From an uncultured Ruminococcus sp. (GTDB lineage: Bacteria; Bacillota; Clostridia; Oscillospirales; Ruminococcaceae), in assembly GCA_946537565.1 (NCBI GenBank), contig CAMNFW010000016.1, positions 1-16,271 of the forward strand: a DNA stretch of 16,271 nt, written 5' to 3'. Position 1 is the stretch's first letter. Each line of letters starts with the position of its first letter. The position numbers and the translations under genes were made by a program. The notes below the pieces were generated by a model. The model was not told where the DNA came from. It did not search any database and saw nothing but the letters and a program-made list of their open reading frames with translations. Below are positions 212 to 16,271 of this stretch, piece by piece.

Positions 212-559
212 TTATTGCGTCATTTCATAGCTCTGATCCATGAGATTGAACAGAGAGGCTTCATCAACACTGCCGTCCAGCAGCACAGAAGTCCATTGTT
301 TTTTATTCATATGATAAGCAGGAAAAGCCTTTCCTTCGGCTATGAGACATTCTCTTTCAGGGATATGGCATTTAAGATTGACCACCCAGACCATTCCTTC
401 GCCCAGACCGAAGACGGAGCGTTTCACTTCCATGAACAGCGCAAACCATTTCCTGCTTTTAGTGTGACGGAGAACGGCGCATTCCGGAGAGCTTTCCCAG
501 GGATAGTCCGGAATGCAGCCATAATTCTCTCTGACATATTCAAAAATTTTATCTTTCAT
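212..559 (-). CDS. MmcQ/YjbR family protein
   Basis: This is a 115-residue protein matching the usual length of the MmcQ/YjbR family (CyaY-like fold, sometimes called double-wing DNA-binding). Visible family landmarks are the early Y-P-W motif (DYPWESSP), RHTKSRKWFALFMEV, VVNLKCHIPE, and the C-terminal block AYHMNKKQWTSVLLDGSV followed by LMDQSY. The family is annotated as DNA-binding on structural grounds, but a biochemical role is not established. The ATG (559-557) shares one base with the TGA stop of valS (TGATG), which points to translational coupling. It sits between valS and a Dabb gene in a leftward operon, so its expression would follow valine tRNA charging through the upstream T-box. 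Nothing about the protein itself suggests a link to aminoacylation. Confidence 0.9.
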   Translation of the reverse strand: MKDKIFEYVRENYGCIPDYPWESSPECAVLRHTKSRKWFALFMEVKRSVFGLGEGMVWVVNLKCHIPERECLIAEGKAFPAYHMNKKQWTSVLLDGSVDEASLFNLMDQSYEMTQ

Positions 560-3858: not shown

Positions 3859-3888
3859 TTGACAAGATTATATATTATGATGTATAAT
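3859..3888 (+). promoter_or_regulatory. Sigma-A promoter of the secreted Thr-rich protein gene
   Basis: TTGACA (3859-3864) and TATAAT (3883-3888) are separated by 18 bases in a very AT-rich setting. The start would be near 3895, giving a leader of about 100 bases before ATG 3996. Both boxes match consensus fully; the spacer is one base longer than ideal. Confidence 0.8.
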
Positions 3889-3995
3889 TAAAGGTATCAG
3901 AAAACCTATTTTGTGATATTCGTCAGTTTTTGCCGAATTCTGTATCCCGGTTTTATGAAATCCATGAATGGAAAACTAAAAAGGAGAAAATTTAT

Positions 3996-4843: not shown

Positions 4844-4914
4844 TTATATTAGCTGCACTGTGTTGAATCTGTGAAAAGACGGTGCTCGCAAGATCATATT
4901 TAGGAGGAAGTATT

Positions 4915-6795
4915 TTGTTAAACTTAAAGGGAAAACTGGTTCGTGTTTTTTCTGCCTGCTGCGCTCTCGTGCTGACAACAGCCTGCGGTGCGCTTCCTGA
5001 AACATATCCGACGGTAAAAGAATATATTCTTTCAGCAGAAAGCGAACCTGATAAGCAGAGATTTGATATCAATTTCTATTTCCAGAATAATGAGAATACT
5101 CATTGCATCAAGGGCGGAACAGCTAACGATTTCTTTAAGAATCTTTTTGGCGATGAGGACGGAAAAGCCGGAATCATCAGCAATATGAGAAATTCAGAAT
5201 CTGAGGATTATGTTCTTTCATATGACCCGACTACAAAACAGTATGGACTGGAGAAATACGATCCTGCTGAGTATGACAACAACAGTCTTATTTCAACTAT
5301 CGAGAATTATCGCATTGACGGCGCAAAGGGCGGAGATAAAGAGAATTTTTATATTCTTGGCGATAATTTCGGAGACATTGATTCCGGAGCCCGTTCCAAC
5401 GGCGGTATCCTCAAGCTCATTGTTAACGAAATGAAAAAATCTGTACCTCCTGCAAATGCTCCGGCTGAAGAGGGGGAAGCTCCTGAAGCAGATGAAGCAG
5501 CGGAAGAAACTGTTGATTCCATGTTCGACCCCGATGCAGTAAGCGTAATATTTACCGACCTTAGTGAAGGAGCTATCGGAGAAAGAGCAAAGGAGATTTA
5601 TCAGCTTTATTCTTCAAGACCGGAGTATTCAGCCTGCATACTCTCTGCAAAGCTTATCACCGAAGAGAATCAGCTTGTCTGGATAACAGCCTCCAACAGC
5701 TCTGAGCCTTCTTTTGCTCCAACAGAGAAAAGAGGCCGTATGTATTACCTGCTGATCCTCGGACCCAGCGCTGATATGGGTATATTCGTGGATAACTTCA
5801 AACAGACCCTTAACGATAAGGGCTGGGTTCAGAACGGCAAGCTTGAAACTGAAAACAGATCTTATTATATATCCGATCTTTATTTCAAGGTCGAGGATTT
5901 CAATTTTGACAATGATATAAAGTGCAATTCTCTCATTTCAGGTGAGGCGGACCTTTCAGGCATGGACGATCAGCAGATCTTTGAGAACTCTATCGTAAGA
6001 CTTGAAGAAGTTCCTGTGAAGGAGTCTGCATTTGCCGCAGATTCTTTACTCAGAGATCAGGTTCATGAGTACCGTTATGTCAAGGATACCGGAAACTACA
6101 AGATAAAGGGCTACAGAAGTGAAGGCCTTAGCTATGACGACAGTTCTACAAAGGATTTTGCTCTTACAATGGAGCTTGATAAAATAGTTGACAAGGGCAA
6201 TGTTATCTCTGACAATACCGATGTTAATTATACCTTTGGAAATGTTGAGAATATCGGTATTTACGTTGAAAAAGACGGAGAGTGGGTGCCTATGGACAAG
6301 ATCCACAAAGAACGTTTCTTCAAGCGTATTAACATAACAGATAAGTGCTTCAAGCAGGAAAATGATGAGTGGATAGAGATAACTCAGGAAGAGTATGATG
6401 AACTCATCAAGGTCAAGAATGATATCGCTATCACTGATTCACGCCGCAAGCCTGTACTGAAAAAGACCAGCGTGCTTAATATCATTTCTGATAATGCCGA
6501 TGAGTGCGATCAGCATAACGTTTATATCACAGTGCCGATATGCCAGCGTGCTATCCTGCCAAATTATATCATCAGTGAGCCTGGCTCAACAAACGCATGG
6601 GTTAACGGCTACTGCAATAACAGCGATAAGACAGCCAATACAGTAAAAACAAACTTCTTCAATGAATTCTATGAGGGATTATTTGACCTGGTAGTTGCAG
6701 GCTCCCGTGATGACAAGAATATCCGTGTTGATGAGTATACCGCAATTGATACTCAGATCGACGTAATGAAGATACTTATTGAAGACGTTCACTGA
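4915..6795 (+). CDS. Putative lipoprotein, 626 residues, function unknown
   Basis: I place the start at TTG 4915 because AGGAGG lies seven bases upstream and the product then begins with a compact signal sequence (KGKLVR, a hydrophobic stretch, then TTAC with Cys24 as possible lipidated residue). The lipobox is imperfect, since Thr sits where Leu/Val is usual. The mature part is acidic, with an Ala/Pro/Glu-rich insert (about 178-202). Straight after it, AVSVIFTDLSEG (208-219) resembles the strand and Asp loop of a von Willebrand A or related Rossmann-like domain. A later strand YYLLILGPS adds to that impression, but I see no clear DxSxS metal site. The C-terminal half shows no family I can name. 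It begins the plus-strand cluster, 11 bases before the GH3 gene. I see no clear promoter in front of it. Confidence 0.8.
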   Translation: MLNLKGKLVRVFSACCALVLTTACGALPETYPTVKEYILSAESEPDKQRFDINFYFQNNENTHCIKGGTANDFFKNLFGDEDGKAGIISNMRNSESEDYVLSYDPTTKQYGLEKYDPAEYDNNSLISTIENYRIDGAKGGDKENFYILGDNFGDIDSGARSNGGILKLIVNEMKKSVPPANAPAEEGEAPEADEAAEETVDSMFDPDAVSVIFTDLSEGAIGERAKEIYQLYSSRPEYSACILSAKLITEENQLVWITASNSSEPSFAPTEKRGRMYYLLILGPSADMGIFVDNFKQTLNDKGWVQNGKLETENRSYYISDLYFKVEDFNFDNDIKCNSLISGEADLSGMDDQQIFENSIVRLEEVPVKESAFAADSLLRDQVHEYRYVKDTGNYKIKGYRSEGLSYDDSSTKDFALTMELDKIVDKGNVISDNTDVNYTFGNVENIGIYVEKDGEWVPMDKIHKERFFKRINITDKCFKQENDEWIEITQEEYDELIKVKNDIAITDSRRKPVLKKTSVLNIISDNADECDQHNVYITVPICQRAILPNYIISEPGSTNAWVNGYCNNSDKTANTVKTNFFNEFYEGLFDLVVAGSRDDKNIRVDEYTAIDTQIDVMKILIEDVH

Positions 6796-6806
6796 TCGGA
6801 GAATGT

Positions 6807-8111
6807 ATGAAAAAAGAAGAAACTGAAGAAAAAAATGACTTGCTTCTTATTATAATATGTATAGTTCTTCTTGCAGTGGCTGTTCTTTCTATCGGATTCA
6901 CGATCACGATGATGCTTGCTGGTTCCGGAAATGTGGAAAAAGCAGAGGAAACCGCAGCTGAAACTGCACCTCCTGTTTTAACAGCTGTTCCCAGTGAAAC
7001 TCAGCCGCCGTCAGTACCAGAAGTGACTATTCCGGCTGATGCAACTGAACCTGCTGTTCCGGAAACCATGCCCACTGAAGATATTTCTGATGAGCCGGAG
7101 ACTGATGATCATTCAGAGGAAATAGAGGAGCTTATCAACAGCATGGAGCTGAGAGATAAGGTCTATCAGCTGTTTATAGTATCGACCTCTAAGTATAATG
7201 CTTATGATTATTCAGCTGCACCTGTCGGCGGAGTTATATATCTTGCTGATGATCTCACACCGAATCAGTATGAAACTCAGCAGATGATCGCTCAGGCACA
7301 GTCCAATGCTCAGAGCTATAACAGCGGAATCGGAATGTTCATATGTGTAGATGAAGAGGGCGGAGATATATCCAGAGTTTCAAATACCTACGGAATGAAC
7401 TCTATCTCAGCTGCGGCGACCCAGACTGCTGACGATGCGTATCAGAATTCAGTGTATATGTCAACATATCTGGAACAGCTGGGATTCAATGTAGATTTTG
7501 CTCCGGTGGCAGATGTTAATATAGGCGGCATGAGCGAACTTGTTGGAGATAACAGAATGTTTGGCTCAGATGCTGAGGATGTTGCAGATAAGGTCAGCAG
7601 TTTTGTTCAGGGTATGCAGCAGAGTGGAAAAGTCTCTGCCACACTTAAGCATTTCCCCGGTCTTGGTGCCGCAAGCGATAATACGCATACATCTCTTGTG
7701 GCTGATATCAACCGAACCCTTGATCAGCTCAGAGCTGAGGAATTTATTCCATTCAGTGCAGGCATAGAGGCAGGAGCTGATTTTGTGATGATCGGTCACC
7801 AGATGATAAGCGGCGCAGGCATTGATGAACCGGCAGATCTTTCTGAAACTGTTATCACTGACTGGCTCAGAGGTGAGCTGGGATTTGAAGGCATAGTGAT
7901 CACTGATGCTCAGAGCATGAACACTGTATCCGGAAACTATACCTCCGGAACAGCAGCTGTTGAATCCATAATGGCTGGAGTTGATATTGTTCTTGAACCG
8001 CAGTCTCTTGAAGAAGCTGCAAATGCAGTTATGAACAATATTGATGAAGAGATGATCAATGAGAGACTCAGGCGGATCTTACAGGTAAAATATAAATTAG
8101 GCTTGATATAA
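6807..8111 (+). CDS. Membrane-anchored GH3 glycosidase, NagZ-like beta-N-acetylhexosaminidase
   Basis: This 434-residue protein has one N-terminal membrane helix (about 11-38), a Pro/Thr/Glu-rich spacer (about 45-105) and a single GH3 barrel domain, suggesting a catalytic domain displayed outside the cell. Family landmarks are VDEEGG (181-186), FAPVADVN (231-238), GDNRMFGSD (247-255), KHFPG (281-285) and VITDAQSM (364-371), with Asp367 as expected nucleophile. The catalytic loop reads SDNTH, with His294 kept but Asn292 two residues before it, where NagZ enzymes usually have Asp. NagZ-type enzymes release N-acetylglucosamine from peptidoglycan fragments or related glycans; the substrate here is unknown. 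The start is supported by GGAG just upstream. The gene follows the lipoprotein by 11 bases and precedes a membrane protein by 27, consistent with one transcript. Confidence 0.9.
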   Translation: MKKEETEEKNDLLLIIICIVLLAVAVLSIGFTITMMLAGSGNVEKAEETAAETAPPVLTAVPSETQPPSVPEVTIPADATEPAVPETMPTEDISDEPETDDHSEEIEELINSMELRDKVYQLFIVSTSKYNAYDYSAAPVGGVIYLADDLTPNQYETQQMIAQAQSNAQSYNSGIGMFICVDEEGGDISRVSNTYGMNSISAAATQTADDAYQNSVYMSTYLEQLGFNVDFAPVADVNIGGMSELVGDNRMFGSDAEDVADKVSSFVQGMQQSGKVSATLKHFPGLGAASDNTHTSLVADINRTLDQLRAEEFIPFSAGIEAGADFVMIGHQMISGAGIDEPADLSETVITDWLRGELGFEGIVITDAQSMNTVSGNYTSGTAAVESIMAGVDIVLEPQSLEEAANAVMNNIDEEMINERLRRILQVKYKLGLI

Positions 8112-9689: not shown

Positions 9690-11510
9690 ATGAGAATCGA
9701 ATTCAAAGCGTACGGAGGTACTGGCTCGCTAATCGGAAAATCTTTTGTGACCCTGCTGGCTCTGAACTCAGCAAATCTTGCAGACAATACCAATGATGAG
9801 TGCGTTGTTTACATCATGGACTATGATGATGTAAAGAGTGCATCAGGTGTAACAGACGGCGAAGTTCTTTCAGATGCGATAGCAAATTACCAGCTCCTTC
9901 ATGACAGAGGACTTGGCTTCCTGGCTCCTGTAAAGCTTACTCAGGACACGACAACCCTTAAGGCTGTAAGAAATAAGGCGTACGGAATGGGCGAAACTGA
10001 ATACAGCCTTAATTCGCTTTTTGCAAAGGGAGCAAACAGCCAGGAGATCAAGGAACTGCTCACCTCTGCTTTCACCTCAGATCCTACAGACCCTGAGAAA
10101 AAGGCTGAATTTGAAATGTCCAATGCTAACGGCTGTTACGGTGACCTGGCAGTTAACGGATTCATCAGCGAGAGACTGCTGGCAAGCAAGGCATTTGAAA
10201 AAATGGGCGCTTATACTAATCTCGGAACTAATCTTAAAGATGCAAAGGTATTCTATGCTGGCTCTACTGACGGCGGTACAGCCAATACAATGATAGATAA
10301 AGATATAGAATCTCTCATAAACTTTATTAATACCAATACAAGTGAACCTACAGACGGAAGCCGTAGCTTTGGAATATACGGACTTCGTACAACTCCGTAC
10401 AGCAAGTTCAAGCTTGAAGGCGATCCAGCTCAGGTATCTAAAACCAGGGATATTCTCCGCAATAAATTTGAAATGGCAAAGGGCGTTCTGGAGAATATCG
10501 AAAACAGAAACAGTGCTTCTCTGAATGACCCGAATTTACCATCTTATTATTACCTCAGACAGAATGGTCAGGGTCACCCGTATTGGCTGGACGGTCTTTT
10601 CATTTCTTCAAATTCTCATCTTGATCTCACTGCAGATCAAGCTCATGCGGATCAGCAGTATCACCCGGCTCATATGGTAGAGTTTGCACTTGCACAGCAG
10701 GCAATGGACGTTATTGCAAACAGAGTTGACTTCGATTTAAATAAGGATCACATCTACTCCTACAATGACGGTGCTGACGAATCAACTGCAAGCCCGATCA
10801 CTCTCGGAAGTTTCTTTGAGAGTCAGCATGTAAACTACAATTTCACTTATTATACTTATGAAGTTGCAAACAGCGGAAGCACGAGCGTTAGCGTATCTCT
10901 TTCAGCTTATATCCGTGCAATTCTTCTTACTCTTGTAACTATCAGAAGCGACATGATAGGTGATTTCAGAAACTATGAGCAGACTGGAATGAGATACATA
11001 AGAGATTTATTCCACCATGCGAGAGGAGCTGAGACAGTTACCTGTCCCCTTGTTGCAGATGAGCTGGAGACATTCCTGGAGGAAGCAAAGTTCCTTGTTA
11101 TGAATCTGGTGGATATTCAGGAATATTCAAAGTTTGGCGGTACAAGACAGGTGGTAAATCTTGTTGAACCATGTATTAAGTTCCTTTATGATTCAGATAC
11201 ACTTGGCAATTCCATAACACCTCCTGCTGGAGCAAAGCTTTTTGTAAATCTGACAGCTAACGGAACATATGAGATCGTACTTGGACAGAACCAGATCCCT
11301 TCTATTCTGGCTGAATTTAACAGTATGCCATGGGCACCGGGTGGAGGATTATTTAAACTAAGTGGAATGCATCTTGATGATTACGATGTTTACGTTAACA
11401 GCAGCGCTCCTACTCCAAAGCAGACCGCAAGAAATATTGCACATAATATGATAAGACGTCTTTTTGAGGTTTATCTCGAAAAAATCAGAGCAACAGGAAC
11501 GGCTAATTAA
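9690..11510 (+). CDS. Divergent tubulin/FtsZ-like nucleotide-binding protein (predicted)
   Basis: This soluble-looking protein has 606 residues and no signal peptide. Landmarks appear in the order seen in bacterial tubulin-like 'GGTG' proteins: a first strand with glycine loop FKAYGGTGS (5-13), a second strand with acidic end YIMDYDDVKS (41-50), a Gly/Asp block ANGCYGDLAVNG (146-157), and a strand with a second glycine loop FYAGSTDGGTANTMI (188-202). The last corresponds to the tubulin signature loop (usually GGTGSG or GGTGA), here altered to DGGTANT. The fold call rests on this pattern and is inference; a Rossmann-type ATP/NAD-binding protein is the alternative. The C-terminal half (about 300-606) is mostly helical with no motif I know. 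AAAGGA lies 13 bases before the ATG. The next gene, a giant actin/Hsp70-like protein, starts 42 bases later, so the two are almost certainly expressed together. Confidence 0.85.
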   Translation: MRIEFKAYGGTGSLIGKSFVTLLALNSANLADNTNDECVVYIMDYDDVKSASGVTDGEVLSDAIANYQLLHDRGLGFLAPVKLTQDTTTLKAVRNKAYGMGETEYSLNSLFAKGANSQEIKELLTSAFTSDPTDPEKKAEFEMSNANGCYGDLAVNGFISERLLASKAFEKMGAYTNLGTNLKDAKVFYAGSTDGGTANTMIDKDIESLINFINTNTSEPTDGSRSFGIYGLRTTPYSKFKLEGDPAQVSKTRDILRNKFEMAKGVLENIENRNSASLNDPNLPSYYYLRQNGQGHPYWLDGLFISSNSHLDLTADQAHADQQYHPAHMVEFALAQQAMDVIANRVDFDLNKDHIYSYNDGADESTASPITLGSFFESQHVNYNFTYYTYEVANSGSTSVSVSLSAYIRAILLTLVTIRSDMIGDFRNYEQTGMRYIRDLFHHARGAETVTCPLVADELETFLEEAKFLVMNLVDIQEYSKFGGTRQVVNLVEPCIKFLYDSDTLGNSITPPAGAKLFVNLTANGTYEIVLGQNQIPSILAEFNSMPWAPGGGLFKLSGMHLDDYDVYVNSSAPTPKQTARNIAHNMIRRLFEVYLEKIRATGTAN

Positions 11511-11552
11511 AGTTGTACTTATTAATATATTTACGAAAGGAAGAAAACCAGT

Positions 11553-14500
11553 ATGAGTTATGTACATCCCTGCGATGGTGCGTTTACCGCAAAGGGTACT
11601 CAGCCTATTGATATAAATATGCTGAAGAGCGGCATTGAAGAGTGGGCGCGCAAGTCCGATGCCGAAATCAGCGGTGCACCTACATATAAATCCAACAACA
11701 ATACAGCAGCATATTTCAATTTTATGAGGATACAGGACAGAAACCTCAATATTAATGAGTTCGTCAGAATCCCTGACCAGCCAAGGTTCAATGATATCCG
11801 TAAGTTTGCGATCATCGCTGCAAATATCCTGCTCAGTCCCTTCAATGACAACCTTAATATCGGTGTTCGCGTGGTGGACTATAACGCCTTCTGCGGCAAT
11901 CAGACTGATCTTGCACAGGCTTTCAAAAAATGGGCAGATGAAATCGACCCGGAGGCAAACGGTGAACTGGTAGAGATATATGCAACTTCAGATAATGTTG
12001 ATTATCCTATTGCATTCTACTCTGAAAGCAGACTCAGAATATATCCCAGAAATACTATAAATCCTGTAGTTTCTCACAGCTTCTTAGGCTGGGACGATAG
12101 ACCGGCACCAGGACTCAATAACTATACCATGAAGGCTTTCAGGGAAGCACTTGTGGACGTTCCGCTGGGACCGAAAATGCTTTATGCAGAGCTTCAGGAT
12201 CCTAATGCAGGACTTAATCAGGTAAATGCTCTTCAGGCTCTTGCCCTCTGGCTGGCATCTCCTGAGAATGGTTATGAAGTACTCAATCCGAGGACAAGGA
12301 CACCAATGAAGCTTACAGGCGATCCTCTCTCTGTTATCATCGACAACAGAGCAGTTTCGATCAAGCTTCCTATGTTCCCTGCACCATACGGTATCGGAAC
12401 AGCAAAGGTGCCGATATTCTCGGAAAAGCTTCTTATCATCAATGATAACAAGAACGTTCAGGACGGCAAGTATGGTCTTTGCCAGCTGGATAACCAGAAG
12501 CTCGGAAAAAGTCCTGCTGACGGCAGATTTGCAGTTATTCCGCCTATAAGCCCTGAGCTTATCAAGGTAATAAAGGAAAACTCACAGAATGTAATATTCA
12601 AGGGCTGTTCTGTTGAAAAGAAGGACAAATGCTATTCTGTTACAATTATCCTGGATATTAACGGCACTCCTTGTATTTATCCCGGTGAGTATGCAGCCGG
12701 CAATGTTAAGTGGTGTGCAAACTTCCCGCTGTTCACCGTACTTTCAACATCTGACCAGCCGTTCCCGTCAAGACTTTACCGCTGCGATTATGCGCCGGTT
12801 GAACAGATGCCGAGATCATTCATCGACGGCAGAGATGAAAACCTTGAAATGGGCTTCAATCAGCTCAGACACGGTGCATTTGACAACTTCGAGATCAAGT
12901 GTGATCCTAACAACAGAAAGTTCTATCTTGACTTCAATCCTGTTCCGGACACTACTGTATTCTCATATTTTGGTGTAAGGTACTATGATAACGCTACCGG
13001 CAATGTGATCTCATTCGGTTATATGTTCTTCGATGTAACTGATCCTGCTAACTCATTGTACAGCACCTGTGCAAACGCTTCCTCTACAGCTGTAATTATC
13101 GACAATACCAATAATGTTGCCAAGATCGCCGTAATGAAGCCAAATGCACCTATCGAGGACTATGATGTCTATAACGATAAGATCCTCTTCTTCAACAGCA
13201 ATTCACGTTCTGACTTTAATGTTAACAATGGTATGTCATGGGGCGAAAACGGAAAGACTCTGTTCTCTGTAATGAACGATACCAGATTTGCCCTTGCACC
13301 GTTCAGCCGCGAATTTTCAAGAATGCTGGCAAATAAGAGCATCAGCATTACTGCTGCTGATCTCCATCCGTCAGGAAGCAACTGGGAATTCTCAGTAACC
13401 TTTGCACACACAAAGGGAGCAGCAATAATGCTTCAGGCTCCGATAAAGGTATTTGATTCTGAGCATCAGTATCTCTGTGAGAATCCTCCTTTCCTCTATG
13501 CTGTAGATACCTTTGATAATCAGAACAACTCCGGCTATGAGGTCGTTCTTGTTCCGAATATGAGAGTCGGCACAGAGACAAAGAACACTCTTGTACCTGT
13601 TGACTCTAATGAAATGACTTTCAGAATTGACAGAGATGAGCTTAATCCTTCACAGTTCATAACTGTTGATCCTTCTGATATTAATCCCAGCGCATATATC
13701 CAGGTATATATGGATAATAACAATTACTTCGGTCAGATAGGTCTTCCTATTAAGAAGTACAATTGGTCAGTAGGCTTCAATTCACTTACCGACTCCGCTA
13801 CAAACTGTGCAGCTGTACTTCTTGTAAATGACAAGGGACCTGGAGTTCCGAAGGAGATAATCACCGGACGAGTATTCGATGACAATATGCTGCTCATACC
13901 CATTGATGAGACCAGACTTTCAAGAGCCGGCAGCGATATCAAGGATAAGAATAATATTGTTGCAAGAAGCGATGAATTCAAGGCATGGCTGGACAGCGGA
14001 CTTATTGTAGGCGTTAATAATATGCCTAACAATAAGAACTATGCTGCTATATGTCCTCTCAGCATGAGAATGCTCCAGAATCTTACATCTGGTACTCTTA
14101 AGCTTTCAAGCCTTCAGCAGCCAGAGGTCGAGTTCAAGATCGACCAGCAGGACGAATACTATATCGCAAAGATATGGATAGAAGGCAAGACAGATCCTTT
14201 CGTAATGAAATATCATGAGGACGCAGTTGTAAAGTGCGACAACCTGCCTTACATCACTGCCCTTAAGGATAAGAGCGAGAGAGGATTTATCGCAAGATTT
14301 GAGAATGAGATCACTGCTAAGGATTCTTCAATGAGCCCTGACGCTATCGACAGCTCAACTATCGAGATCGACTGTATCGATGGTGAAAGAATAAGCAGAA
14401 TAAAAAAATCCAGCGTCAAGGAATCAAGCTATGTTGAAGTTGACGGCAAGGACGTTGTACTTCGCCTCAATGTAAAGCCAGGTGTTGTATGCCACACACT

Positions 14501-16271
14501 GTTCAGCATGGCAAATGCGTTCAACGAGGGTGTATACTGCGTAAAATCCGACTTCACCGGTTCACAGCATATCTTCGACTTCAACGTTGAGGAAAACGGA
14601 CAGGCGACAGTAAGAGAGGTTGAGGTATTCACTGAGTATATGCTCTGGACACCTATCGAAACCACAAAGTTTGCCAACGATGCAGATGCTATTGATCTGG
14701 GTAAAACCGGAAGAAACGACAGACGGCTTTATTCTATCCCGATCACTATGGAATTCTCCAAGCTCATGGAGGAGAGAAATATCAGCATTCCGGCATACTC
14801 CAATGTAAGCTATTATACAGACCCTGAGAAGCCGGAAAATGGTATCAGCACAAAGCCCACAGAAGCAAGAGCAGGACTTTATGTTGCTATCTCACTGACA
14901 GGTATCAAGGGTACAGCTTCCAAGATCGTTAAGAAATTTGATGATGCGAAGATCATCTCCTTTGATAAATATGCACTGCCTACACTGACAGTATTCCCGT
15001 TTGTAAACTTTGTTGCAGCGAGAAATAACAATACTGTCTCTGGCGGATTCGCTCCGCAGCTGGTAGGAAAGAGTCTCTGGAATGAATACTCCTATGCTAA
15101 ATTCACTCCTGCCAACAAGACACCGCAGGCTCAGAATCCGGGCAGAAGAGATCCTCTTGGCTCCCGTGTTGAATTCTGGATCGGCGGCAAGAGAGTTGAC
15201 TTCAAGGAGCGCTGCACAAAGATCATGGAAATGAACACAAGTGCAGACAGAGCTATTATGGAGATAGCAAAGGTTGACAGATGGGGCACATATATCCACA
15301 TGAAGTACGATGGCTCCAGCAAGTATGCTCCGGCTCAGCCGAATGATCAGCTGCTGGACGGCAAGGAGCTTGGCTGCATCATCATGAAGCCTCAGAAGGA
15401 AACACCTGTATATGCTGAGCAGGGTGCTGAGGTCGGTGTTGACTTCGGTACAAGAAATACTATCATTGCTATAAGAACTCCTAACGGCTGGAGCTACCCA
15501 TATCACGGACGTGTAGAGCTTCAGCAGACGATCATTCCCGGCATGGCTCCGTCTGTATTTGAGGAATTCTCAAACCTCAGCTATATACCTCATTTTGATC
15601 CGACAAGCCGTTCAACAGCAGTTGACCATGGTCTTGGAGTAGGTGAAGGTAAGTTCTCGTCAACTGTTATGCTTTATTCAGATGCTACAAGAGTTTCAAC
15701 TATACCTCTTACACCTTATGATCTTGGCTTTGTTCCTAATGTTCAGGGTGATGTTCTTGAGAAGCTGATGAATGGTCTCGGCGGCGGTGCAAACATGGGC
15801 AGTGCGCTGGGCTTCTACAGCGACCTTAAGATCTCTACAGCAAAGGGCAAGAGTTTTAATGCTGCTGTTATGGACAGAAATGTTAGACTGTTCATTAAGA
15901 GCCTTATGTTTCATATTATTCTTAACTGCTACCAGATGAGCTGCGGCTCTATAAGAATACGCATATCTGTACCTTCTGAGCAGTTTGTTGCAAGTATTAA
16001 GGAAGTATGGAAGGAAGCAAAGCAATTCATCAGCGGCCTTATGCCTGCTGGTGCAGGAGATAAGATCGAGATTGGTTATTATGATACCGAGGCAAGAGCG
16101 CTGTTCACATATCTTCAGAAATCGCCGAATATAGGTAACTATATACCTAAATATTCTGCTATTACTGACGGCGGTGACGGTACTTATGACTTCACTATAA
16201 ATGAGATCAAGGACGGCAAGCTGGTTCTCAGTAAGGACAGAGATTCTGCATTCTCACTGAGGTATGCTGGT
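11553..16271 (+). CDS. Giant protein with C-terminal actin/Hsp70-like ATPase domain, 3' end outside window
   Basis: The frame is open from ATG 11553 to the last base: 1573 codons without a stop, so the C-terminus is missing. AAAGGA lies 11 bases before the start. Residues 1 to about 1290 contain no domain I recognise; they lack a signal peptide and membrane helices and alternate short strands with Asp/Asn/Pro turns, suggesting serial beta-rich modules. At 1294-1304 VGVDFGTRNTI matches the phosphate-1 loop of actin/Hsp70 ATPases. IRIRISVPSEQF (about 1472-1483) matches the Hsp70 strand ending in V-P. TDGGDGTYDFT (1538-1548) matches phosphate-2, although the usual DGGGGTTDF has G to D and T to Y changes. 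The remaining ATPase half must lie beyond the window. It probably binds and hydrolyses ATP in the cytoplasm, partnered with the tubulin-like protein encoded 42 bases upstream. SrfB-type large Hsp70-like proteins are a possible distant comparison. Confidence 0.9.
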   Translation, partial: MSYVHPCDGAFTAKGTQPIDINMLKSGIEEWARKSDAEISGAPTYKSNNNTAAYFNFMRIQDRNLNINEFVRIPDQPRFNDIRKFAIIAANILLSPFNDNLNIGVRVVDYNAFCGNQTDLAQAFKKWADEIDPEANGELVEIYATSDNVDYPIAFYSESRLRIYPRNTINPVVSHSFLGWDDRPAPGLNNYTMKAFREALVDVPLGPKMLYAELQDPNAGLNQVNALQALALWLASPENGYEVLNPRTRTPMKLTGDPLSVIIDNRAVSIKLPMFPAPYGIGTAKVPIFSEKLLIINDNKNVQDGKYGLCQLDNQKLGKSPADGRFAVIPPISPELIKVIKENSQNVIFKGCSVEKKDKCYSVTIILDINGTPCIYPGEYAAGNVKWCANFPLFTVLSTSDQPFPSRLYRCDYAPVEQMPRSFIDGRDENLEMGFNQLRHGAFDNFEIKCDPNNRKFYLDFNPVPDTTVFSYFGVRYYDNATGNVISFGYMFFDVTDPANSLYSTCANASSTAVIIDNTNNVAKIAVMKPNAPIEDYDVYNDKILFFNSNSRSDFNVNNGMSWGENGKTLFSVMNDTRFALAPFSREFSRMLANKSISITAADLHPSGSNWEFSVTFAHTKGAAIMLQAPIKVFDSEHQYLCENPPFLYAVDTFDNQNNSGYEVVLVPNMRVGTETKNTLVPVDSNEMTFRIDRDELNPSQFITVDPSDINPSAYIQVYMDNNNYFGQIGLPIKKYNWSVGFNSLTDSATNCAAVLLVNDKGPGVPKEIITGRVFDDNMLLIPIDETRLSRAGSDIKDKNNIVARSDEFKAWLDSGLIVGVNNMPNNKNYAAICPLSMRMLQNLTSGTLKLSSLQQPEVEFKIDQQDEYYIAKIWIEGKTDPFVMKYHEDAVVKCDNLPYITALKDKSERGFIARFENEITAKDSSMSPDAIDSSTIEIDCIDGERISRIKKSSVKESSYVEVDGKDVVLRLNVKPGVVCHTLFSMANAFNEGVYCVKSDFTGSQHIFDFNVEENGQATVREVEVFTEYMLWTPIETTKFANDADAIDLGKTGRNDRRLYSIPITMEFSKLMEERNISIPAYSNVSYYTDPEKPENGISTKPTEARAGLYVAISLTGIKGTASKIVKKFDDAKIISFDKYALPTLTVFPFVNFVAARNNNTVSGGFAPQLVGKSLWNEYSYAKFTPANKTPQAQNPGRRDPLGSRVEFWIGGKRVDFKERCTKIMEMNTSADRAIMEIAKVDRWGTYIHMKYDGSSKYAPAQPNDQLLDGKELGCIIMKPQKETPVYAEQGAEVGVDFGTRNTIIAIRTPNGWSYPYHGRVELQQTIIPGMAPSVFEEFSNLSYIPHFDPTSRSTAVDHGLGVGEGKFSSTVMLYSDATRVSTIPLTPYDLGFVPNVQGDVLEKLMNGLGGGANMGSALGFYSDLKISTAKGKSFNAAVMDRNVRLFIKSLMFHIILNCYQMSCGSIRIRISVPSEQFVASIKEVWKEAKQFISGLMPAGAGDKIEIGYYDTEARALFTYLQKSPNIGNYIPKYSAITDGGDGTYDFTINEIKDGKLVLSKDRDSAFSLRYAG

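Follow-up and report, generated by a model that had tools for sequence, protein, structure and literature searches.

A conserved cassette in three bacterial phyla pairs a predicted tubulin-fold gene with a giant actin-fold gene

The best-known actin-tubulin gene neighborhood is ftsA-ftsZ, whose products cooperate at the membrane. To our knowledge, no other described bacterial operon pairs tubulin-family and actin-family genes as constant neighbors, and a search of literature titles and abstract openings, which left most subscription papers outside, found no such operon. Here, we analyze a pair of this kind in a stretch of 16,271 nucleotides from an uncultured Ruminococcus sp. (hereafter, the window), which is the whole contig CAMNFW010000016.1 (G000:C16) of a 2.16-Mb draft genome in 310 contigs (G000; GCA_946537565.1). 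The two genes are separated by 42 bases: an open reading frame (ORF) of 606 amino acids (aa) at 9690-11510 encodes a tubulin-like protein (TLP), and an ORF from 11553 to the contig end at 16271, still open after 1573 aa, encodes a giant actin-like protein (ALP). The original prediction, made from the sequence alone, had the order, coordinates, and spacing right. Upstream of the pair lies the gene of a vWA-like lipoprotein (LP).

Makarova and Koonin (2010; PMC2875224) predicted that operons of FtsZl1 (Tubulin_2), vWA, and GTPase genes are membrane-remodeling systems. The passages on actin in that paper put no actin-like gene in FtsZl1 operons, and MreB and Hsp70 are absent from its main text; ALP may be present, unrecognized, among the unnamed associated families (A1-A2, B1-B9) of its supplement. 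Kaur et al. (2020; PMC7159879) described DO-GTPase/GAP1-N2 systems; the overview of that paper combines GTPases with tubulin homologs and an HSP70-family protein, and its detailed section keeps the tubulin and HSP70 themes non-overlapping. In a 2023 paper (PMC9871819), which has no word beginning "actin", Tubulin_2 proteins are described as few and divergent.

TLP lies directly upstream of ALP in all 16 genomes or plasmids examined, from Bacillota, Cyanobacteriota, and Bacteroidota; two of these (plasmids H3 and H4) were judged from match coordinates alone. This is the neighbor count that the original prediction had proposed as a check. Four cases were found via ALP alone: G134 (loci L013 and L020), G151 (L012), G649 (L033; same class as the window), and G1371 (L094; same phylum). 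In each of them, ALP is preceded by TLP, TLP by a small membrane protein gene, and this in turn by a lipoprotein gene. Loci L001-L004 were found via TLP and have ALP as the next gene in 4/4; a Prevotella record (L097) was also found via TLP, and its next gene matches a four-member ALP profile (E = 4.6e-21). G000, G027, and five cyanobacterial plasmids were found via both genes. Named relatives are metagenome genomes of Ruminococcus and Oscillospiraceae. The order LP, membrane gene(s), TLP, ALP holds in the window, L001-L004, L012, L013, L033, L094, L096, L097, and L098; L095 has the same cassette order, but its lipoprotein gene is on the opposite strand. The gene after ALP usually encodes a membrane coiled-coil protein. 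In G027 (L014), TLP is cut by the contig start, the upstream side lies beyond the contig, and ALP is spread over several frames; the G649 TLP gene is in two frames (L033, 11746-13196). These split frames may be assembly errors or decay.

The TLP-ALP gap was -1 to 66 bases in the eight distant loci measured, at 11-31% identity between lineages. Pairwise identities of the two proteins covary (Spearman 0.78 over 11 loci; 1/2000 permutations as high), and do so in six distant loci alone (Spearman 0.66). The earlier interpretation that the two work together is thus supported by a conserved unit with covarying divergence, and TLP and ALP likely share a common function. Homology across the loci was followed by profile comparisons for TLP (L012-L094, E = 1.1e-19; L094-L095, 2.3e-41; L094-L097, 2.2e-19), for ALP (window clade-L012, 4.7e-14; L013-L033, 1.2e-7; L033-L094, 8e-24; L094-L095, 2.2e-47), and for LP (L012-L094, 3.4e-7; L033-L094, 3.5e-5; L094-L095, 1.5e-6), with the LP profile of the window clade reaching the L012 lipoprotein at 95.3% in hhalign (E = 2.2e-8; six controls, E >= 0.11). 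The best control pair in this grid had E = 0.0073, and same-component values of about 0.002-0.05, as for LP to L013, L033, and L094, TLP to L013, and ALP to L094, were not counted alone; the links rest on the stronger intermediate pairs. TLP and ALP of L094, which is from the window's phylum, both resemble the plasmid copies of cyanobacteria more closely than those of L012; this suggests that the cassette has moved as a unit by transfer.

The cassette is rare in the family. TLP profile A3 matched 2/197 genomes of the family, a lower bound, since A3 missed G134 and G151, both of which carry TLP; a search with ALP P0031 matched 4/197. In the order, profile A5 matched 4/394 genomes at E <= 0.001, with the window's own the only strong match, and profile A6 matched one genome of 391 in the class (G649). 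ALP profile A10 matched 210 of 396 family genomes, four of them strongly (E <= 1e-66; next best 3.1e-7); the 206 weak matches fall mostly on frames of about 340 aa, and the three of these that were scanned are all MreB. Profile A12 matched 111/393 genomes of the phylum, with G1371 (7.8e-19) the single match that stood out. All nine genomes searched (9/9) carry an FtsZ-type gene at another place, so TLP is not the only tubulin of the divisome.

The TLP model (pLDDT 87) has tubulin/FtsZ entries for all 50 listed structural matches, and we assign TLP to the tubulin fold with high confidence in this prediction, as had been proposed for the 606-residue protein; Foldseek alone gave no match at E <= 0.001. 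We aligned TLP relatives in 21 rows (A1) and 25 rows (A3, also the TLP profile) and ALP relatives in nine rows (A2). AYGGTG and GGTANT are each fixed in 21/21 A1 rows, so the TLP motifs are not chance; GGTANT is also in 24/25 A3 rows. In the window, YGGTGS is at residue 8 and GSTDGGTANT at residue 191. All glycine-loop motifs named in the original prediction are present, but GGTGS had been misread: alignment with distant relatives makes it the N-terminal T1 loop after the first strand, and T4 is GSTDGGTANT. The T4 position of distant TLPs reads (G/S)SxFGGTGA or FGGTG(A/S), in contrast to GGTANT in the window clade, and the classical signature loop GGGTG(S/T)G is in 0/21 A1 rows.

A sequence-level link to FtsZ was not found by hhalign between three TLP profiles (3/9 loci passed the motif filter) and three FtsZ sequences (E = 0.038-0.15): in this check of the T7 catalytic loop and the protofilament contacts, distant TLPs aligned over 27 columns around T4 only (E = 0.039), and the close TLP clade was misaligned (E = 0.038). 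PF13809 (Tubulin_2) matched 0/21 A1 members at E <= 1 and nothing in G000; distant TLPs all scored under its cut-off (L012, 8.4e-4; L094, 1.1e-5; L097, 7.7e-5; L096, 1.1e-4; L013, 0.22), the best at 25.3 bits with a cut-off of 27. An extended coiled coil after the FtsZ-like domain was not seen in the secondary structure of the model, where helices past residue 400 span at most 27 residues. Neither TLP nor ALP of the window had a useful match in Pfam, NCBIfam, or PADLOC, and a PDB sequence search gave only chance matches; Pfam scans of 21 TLP and nine ALP relatives gave scattered weak matches. The window TLP had no match in phage or plasmid records. We rejected a phage origin, as neither the window TLP nor the L094 ALP matches phage records.

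The C-terminal domain of ALP, modeled in a relative, matches the actin/Hsp70 fold (Foldseek E = 7e-7) and both phosphate loops are in place, in keeping with the earlier call on the giant protein; we place this predicted nucleotide-binding domain in the actin fold with high confidence. VDFGTRN and DGGDGTYDF are both in 9/9 A2 rows and are thus not chance motifs. The phosphate-2 loop of distant ALPs is D(I/L/V)G(G/A)G(T/S)xD, and a DxGxG-type loop is present in 11/11 aligned loci. The beta-sandwich substrate-binding domain of Hsp70 was not seen: past residue 761, the model continues as a linker of low confidence, followed by a tail that is mostly helical and has two short strands. The five families that the nine A2 members matched at E <= 1 do not include HSP70; the 50 listed structural matches of ALP do not include FtsA, which excludes nothing. 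The L094 ALP passes the Pfam cut-off for MreB (MreB_Mbl), and TriTu matches 3/9 giant ALPs (best E = 0.0012). We dropped the idea that ALP is SrfB-like, as Pfam scans of ALPs gave no PF07520 match.

The N-terminal region of ALP is large, as first noted. Profile comparison of ten segments of the window ALP, in all 45 pairings, indicates three, perhaps four, diverged copies of a module of about 120 residues. The clade ALP profile aligns with the L012 ALP over 685 columns including R4 (E = 4.7e-14), and five distant ALPs (L012, L013, L033, L094, L097) have 519-598 residues before the phosphate-1 loop vs. 1295 in the window; for these reasons, module amplification is probably a trait of the window clade. 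Full-length relatives have 1892-1936 aa. Directly downstream of ALP, two loci carry ALP paralogs without a Pfam match, of 1120 aa in L002 (17632-20994) and 471 aa in L030 (195-1610); by eye, the latter comprises the C-terminal part of the actin domain and one module. Among the candidates scored, the L094 ALP has 286 relatives at E <= 0.001. Nine of the 120 listed are named, all from Selenomonadaceae or Anaerovibrio, and four of these nine are called "rod shape-determining protein". The public name is carried by P0057, P0061, P0104, and P0117, relatives of 1,100-1,230 aa; it is likely a misnaming that probably stems from a partial MreB match.

The alignment of the cassette lipoproteins centers on two elements, a first strand that is vWA-like and, further on, a (T/S)D(L/M) strand. 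The position of the metal ion-dependent adhesion site (MIDAS) reads DGSGS in L095, DASGS in L096, DNTQS in L012, and DATYS in L094; it is degraded in the window LP, which lacks the DxSxS motif. From motif and position, we infer that LP is vWA-type. The Prevotella lipoprotein has E = 2.2e-4 to L094 and weak values elsewhere, and G134 also has a separate secreted VWA protein (E = 3.9e-13). Wall enzymes are found nearby: GH3 lies between LP and TLP in 5/5 window-clade loci (window, L001-L004) and downstream of the cassette in L094 (E = 1e-78), L002, L003, and L004 each have a GH25-GH3 fusion upstream (3/3 scanned), and L033 and L098 both carry a TM2 protein and Beta-lactamase2-type serine hydrolases. 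The fusions look secreted and have 800 aa (L002, 1897-4299; L003, 1523-3922; L004, 1924-4326), with a GH25 lysozyme domain at E = 9e-27 to 3e-29. Small membrane genes are alike only between L094 and the cyanobacterial loci (E = 6e-5 to 8e-4), and coiled-coil genes showed no detectable likeness between loci. Downstream in the window clade (L030, L031, L019) are coiled-coil and kinase-type proteins. Five of the latter were scanned: Pkinase matched four, three of them above the cut-off, and all five lack the HRD motif, so they are likely pseudokinases. In one kinase-type protein of L030 (11250-13400), which lacks HRD, the kinase part (Pkinase, E = 9.6e-11) is joined to a C-type lectin domain (Lectin_C, E = 1.8e-7). 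Just downstream of the cassette in L030 (1594-3318) is a 574-aa Pro/Glu-rich protein with near-identical repeats around GFGDLGEPVKKAEPKPEP.

In the window, the pair is the last part seen of a gene run that starts at 3930, lies wholly on the + strand, and reaches the contig end; the genes are 154, 11, 27, 12, 25, 134, and 42 bases apart (Table 1). ORFs similar to the surface protein that opens the run occupy the same place in L001 and L003; this protein has no Pfam match over the cut-off. The window GH3 matches the beta-N-acetylhexosaminidase PRK05337 at E = 2.7e-39, under the NCBI cut-off. Outside the run, what we take to be the valyl-tRNA synthetase gene has the opposite orientation, and beside it (212-559, minus strand) is the gene of a 115-aa protein, presumably resembling MmcQ/YjbR-type proteins.

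Table 1. Features of the tubulin-actin gene run in the window
Feature	Position	Strand	Basis and remarks
Sigma-70-type promoter-like site TTGACA-18-TATAAT	3859..3888	+	Upstream of run; 12/12 consensus positions, consensus match only
Secreted surface protein, 265 aa, Thr-rich stalk, C-terminal hydrophobic segment	3930..4727	+	ORF; topology by eye
LP, vWA-like lipoprotein, degraded MIDAS motif, start codon uncertain	4882..6795	+	hhalign to L012 lipoprotein; MIDAS-region alignment
GH3 enzyme, beta-N-acetylhexosaminidase-like, N-terminal membrane anchor by eye	6807..8111	+	Glyco_hydro_3, E = 2.2e-55
Small membrane protein 1, 181 aa	8139..8684	+	ORF; hydrophobic segments by eye; no family over Pfam cut-off
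Small membrane protein 2, 132 aa	8697..9095	+	ORF; hydrophobic segments by eye
Small membrane protein 3, 144 aa	9121..9555	+	ORF; hydrophobic segments by eye
TLP, predicted tubulin/FtsZ fold, 606 aa	9690..11510	+	
T1 loop GGTG of TLP	9714..9725	+	YGGTG in 25/25 A3 rows; aligned with GG(T/S)G of distant TLPs
T4-equivalent loop GSTDGGTANT of TLP	10260..10289	+	Aligned to GSMFGGTGAS of L012
ALP, giant, predicted actin/Hsp70 fold, 1573 aa seen, cut by contig end	11553..16271	+	
Module copy R1, residues 286-412	12408..12788	+	hhalign R1-R3 97.2%, E = 3.6e-11
Module copy R2, residues 535-660	13155..13532	+	hhalign R2-R3 92.2%, E = 5.9e-7; R1-R2 38.4%, E = 3.3e-4
Module copy R3, residues 766-905	13848..14267	+	hhalign to R1 and R2
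Possible fourth copy R4, residues 1020-1160, adjoins actin domain	14610..15032	+	Weak to R1-R3, best E = 0.0067 (R2-R4)
Actin phosphate-1 loop VDFGTRN	15438..15458	+	Residue 1296; 9/9 A2 rows; D(F/L)GT in 11/11 aligned loci
Actin phosphate-2 loop DGGDGTYDF	16167..16193	+	Residue 1539; 9/9 A2 rows

Based on the gene order in three phyla, the two folds, the lipoprotein/vWA-type sequence signatures, and the TLP-ALP covariation, we tentatively propose, at somewhat less than an even chance, that the cassette builds an envelope-anchored, nucleotide-switched scaffold for wall sensing or remodeling. By analogy with FtsA/FtsZ, cytoplasmic TLP (with GTP) and ALP (with ATP) would form a joint scaffold, and nucleotide would switch its assembly. 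Tethers to the membrane would be provided by the membrane and coiled-coil proteins, and the outer lipoprotein and neighboring wall enzymes, namely GH3 (window clade, L094), GH25-GH3 fusions (L002-L004), and beta-lactamase-fold serine hydrolases (L033, L098), would sense or remodel the wall and couple the scaffold to it. The window clade is, by its sequences, a derived branch: modules are duplicated, loops are altered, the kinase-type proteins are likely pseudokinases, and no DO-GTPase was seen linked to the cassette. In this branch, the ALP arm has probably grown longer through copies of the module, both phosphate loops and the metal site of the vWA region have diverged, and the likely pseudokinases have joined downstream; the branch may therefore be more scaffold than cycling NTPase. 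A bolder version strikes us as doubtful: that tubulin- and actin-family NTPases distinct from FtsZ/FtsA are obligate co-assembling partners in one nucleotide-controlled structure, to which a vWA-type lipoprotein and wall enzymes are coupled across the membrane, and that the whole cassette was transferred across at least three phyla.

Several points weigh against the scaffold. Interaction, polymerization, and NTP hydrolysis of TLP and ALP are predictions only, and the T4 and phosphate-2 loops of the window clade deviate from consensus; as both are diverged yet fixed (21/21 and 9/9), hydrolysis could be altered or lost with binding kept. The clade TLP profile has no direct reach to the L094 TLP (E = 0.12), the link running via L012. 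The Pfam vWA model matched 0/8 lipoproteins scanned, the link to wall enzymes varies by lineage, with none noticed in L012, L013, and L097, and the membrane and coiled-coil genes are, from sequence comparison, matched mostly by position and not by homology. The contig ends inside ALP, which puts the window's own downstream genes outside the sequence. Finally, the DO-GTPase-bearing relatives (L012, L013) fit the published "conflict system" class equally well.

In that class, the cassette would be an NTP-dependent conflict (defense) system akin to DO-GTPase/GAP1: once an invader is sensed, its tubulin-like and actin/Hsp70-like proteins would assemble as effectors. GTPase systems with tubulin or HSP70 genes are described in PMC7159879, the distribution of the cassette is patchy and partly plasmid-borne, and DO-GTPase2 genes adjoin it in L012 (E = 1.5e-8), which also has a weak GAP1-M match under the cut-off (E = 0.0083), and in G134 (L020/L013; E = 3.1e-9). 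However, the gene adjoining the G134 GTPase has no GAP1 Pfam match, DO-GTPase2 was not found in G027, G197-G200, or G649, and the sole DO-GTPase2 of G000 is unlinked, on another contig beside HSP70 genes. PADLOC has no match for the window TLP, ALP, or lipoprotein, and no effector-like domain was recognized beside the cassette among the genes looked at. We regard a defense role as rather unlikely. The unlinked G000 cluster (L018, G000:C41, 1174-7878, minus strand) contains an HSP70-VWA fusion (HSP70, E = 1.4e-93; VWA, E = 1.2e-12), a second HSP70, and DO-GTPase2 (E = 4.1e-8), and by its sequence resembles the HSP70 theme described for GAP1-type systems.

We are more skeptical that the genes are a cell-shape or division paralog pair, that is, an FtsA-FtsZ-like or MreB-like morphogenesis system. 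FtsZ and FtsA/MreB have these same folds, ftsA and ftsZ are a known neighboring pair, wall enzymes lie near the cassette, FtsA matches the L096 ALP below threshold (E = 1.5e-4), and some named ALP relatives carry the rod-shape label (4/9, above). Yet only four of 396 family genomes have a strong match and FtsZ-type genes lie elsewhere in 9/9; G000 also has a 341-aa MreB-like frame at C53, seen by an ALP-profile match, and a linked lipoprotein is foreign to the division gene pairs we know. A DNA- or plasmid-segregation pair (TubZ plus ParM-like) seems very improbable: the five cyanobacterial copies are plasmid-borne, one record with a ParA gene about 8 kb from the cassette, but two other copies are on contigs of 0.8 and 2.2 Mb (G151:C7, G1371:C1), every upstream flank that was read has linked lipoprotein and membrane genes, and the window TLP is unmatched in phages and plasmids. 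Short-range operon shuffling can keep neighbors by chance, but that two independent genes would stay adjacent in 16/16 cases over three phyla, at such low identity and such short gaps and with covarying distances, is scarcely credible.

Should the two proteins co-assemble, bacteria would have a second actin-tubulin partnership, independent of the first. Culturable cyanobacteria that carry copies, among them Picosynechococcus sp. PCC 7003 and Gloeothece PCC 7822, which have theirs on plasmids, make this directly testable. Co-assembly would also give context to the large set of ALP relatives (286), most of the listed ones nameless. The resemblance to ftsA-ftsZ lies in neighboring actin-family and tubulin-family genes, but TLP and ALP are distinct, with an FtsZ-type gene elsewhere and a lipoprotein-linked ALP of 1,100-1,900 residues. 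ALP is like MreB and Hsp70 in its phosphate loops, fold, and the over-cut-off MreB_Mbl match in L094, and unlike them in its large N-terminal region and its place beside a tubulin-like gene in every case examined. The window TLP differs from CetZ, PhuZ, and TubZ in having no sequence-level match, another T4 loop, and another gene context. As described in PMC2875224, FtsZl1 is likewise a divergent tubulin-superfamily gene in operons with vWA and membrane proteins, some with a GTPase or kinase, alongside a conventional FtsZ, but FtsZl1 shows a long coiled-coil extension and the GGGTG(S/T)G loop, neither of which is seen in the window TLP. The DO-GTPase/GAP1-N2 systems of PMC7159879, from Firmicutes and other groups, also have tubulin-family, HSP70-family, vWA, and membrane genes in their operons, and G134 and G151 carry a GTPase beside the cassette. 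In contrast, here both folds are in one operon, the ALP model lacks an Hsp70 substrate-binding domain, and no linked DO-GTPase was found in the window clade, the window's downstream side lying past the contig end. Altogether, the cassette is related to the FtsZl1/vWA and DO-GTPase systems and analogous to ftsA-ftsZ, with its own tubulin- and actin-fold proteins and a constant lipoprotein neighbor.

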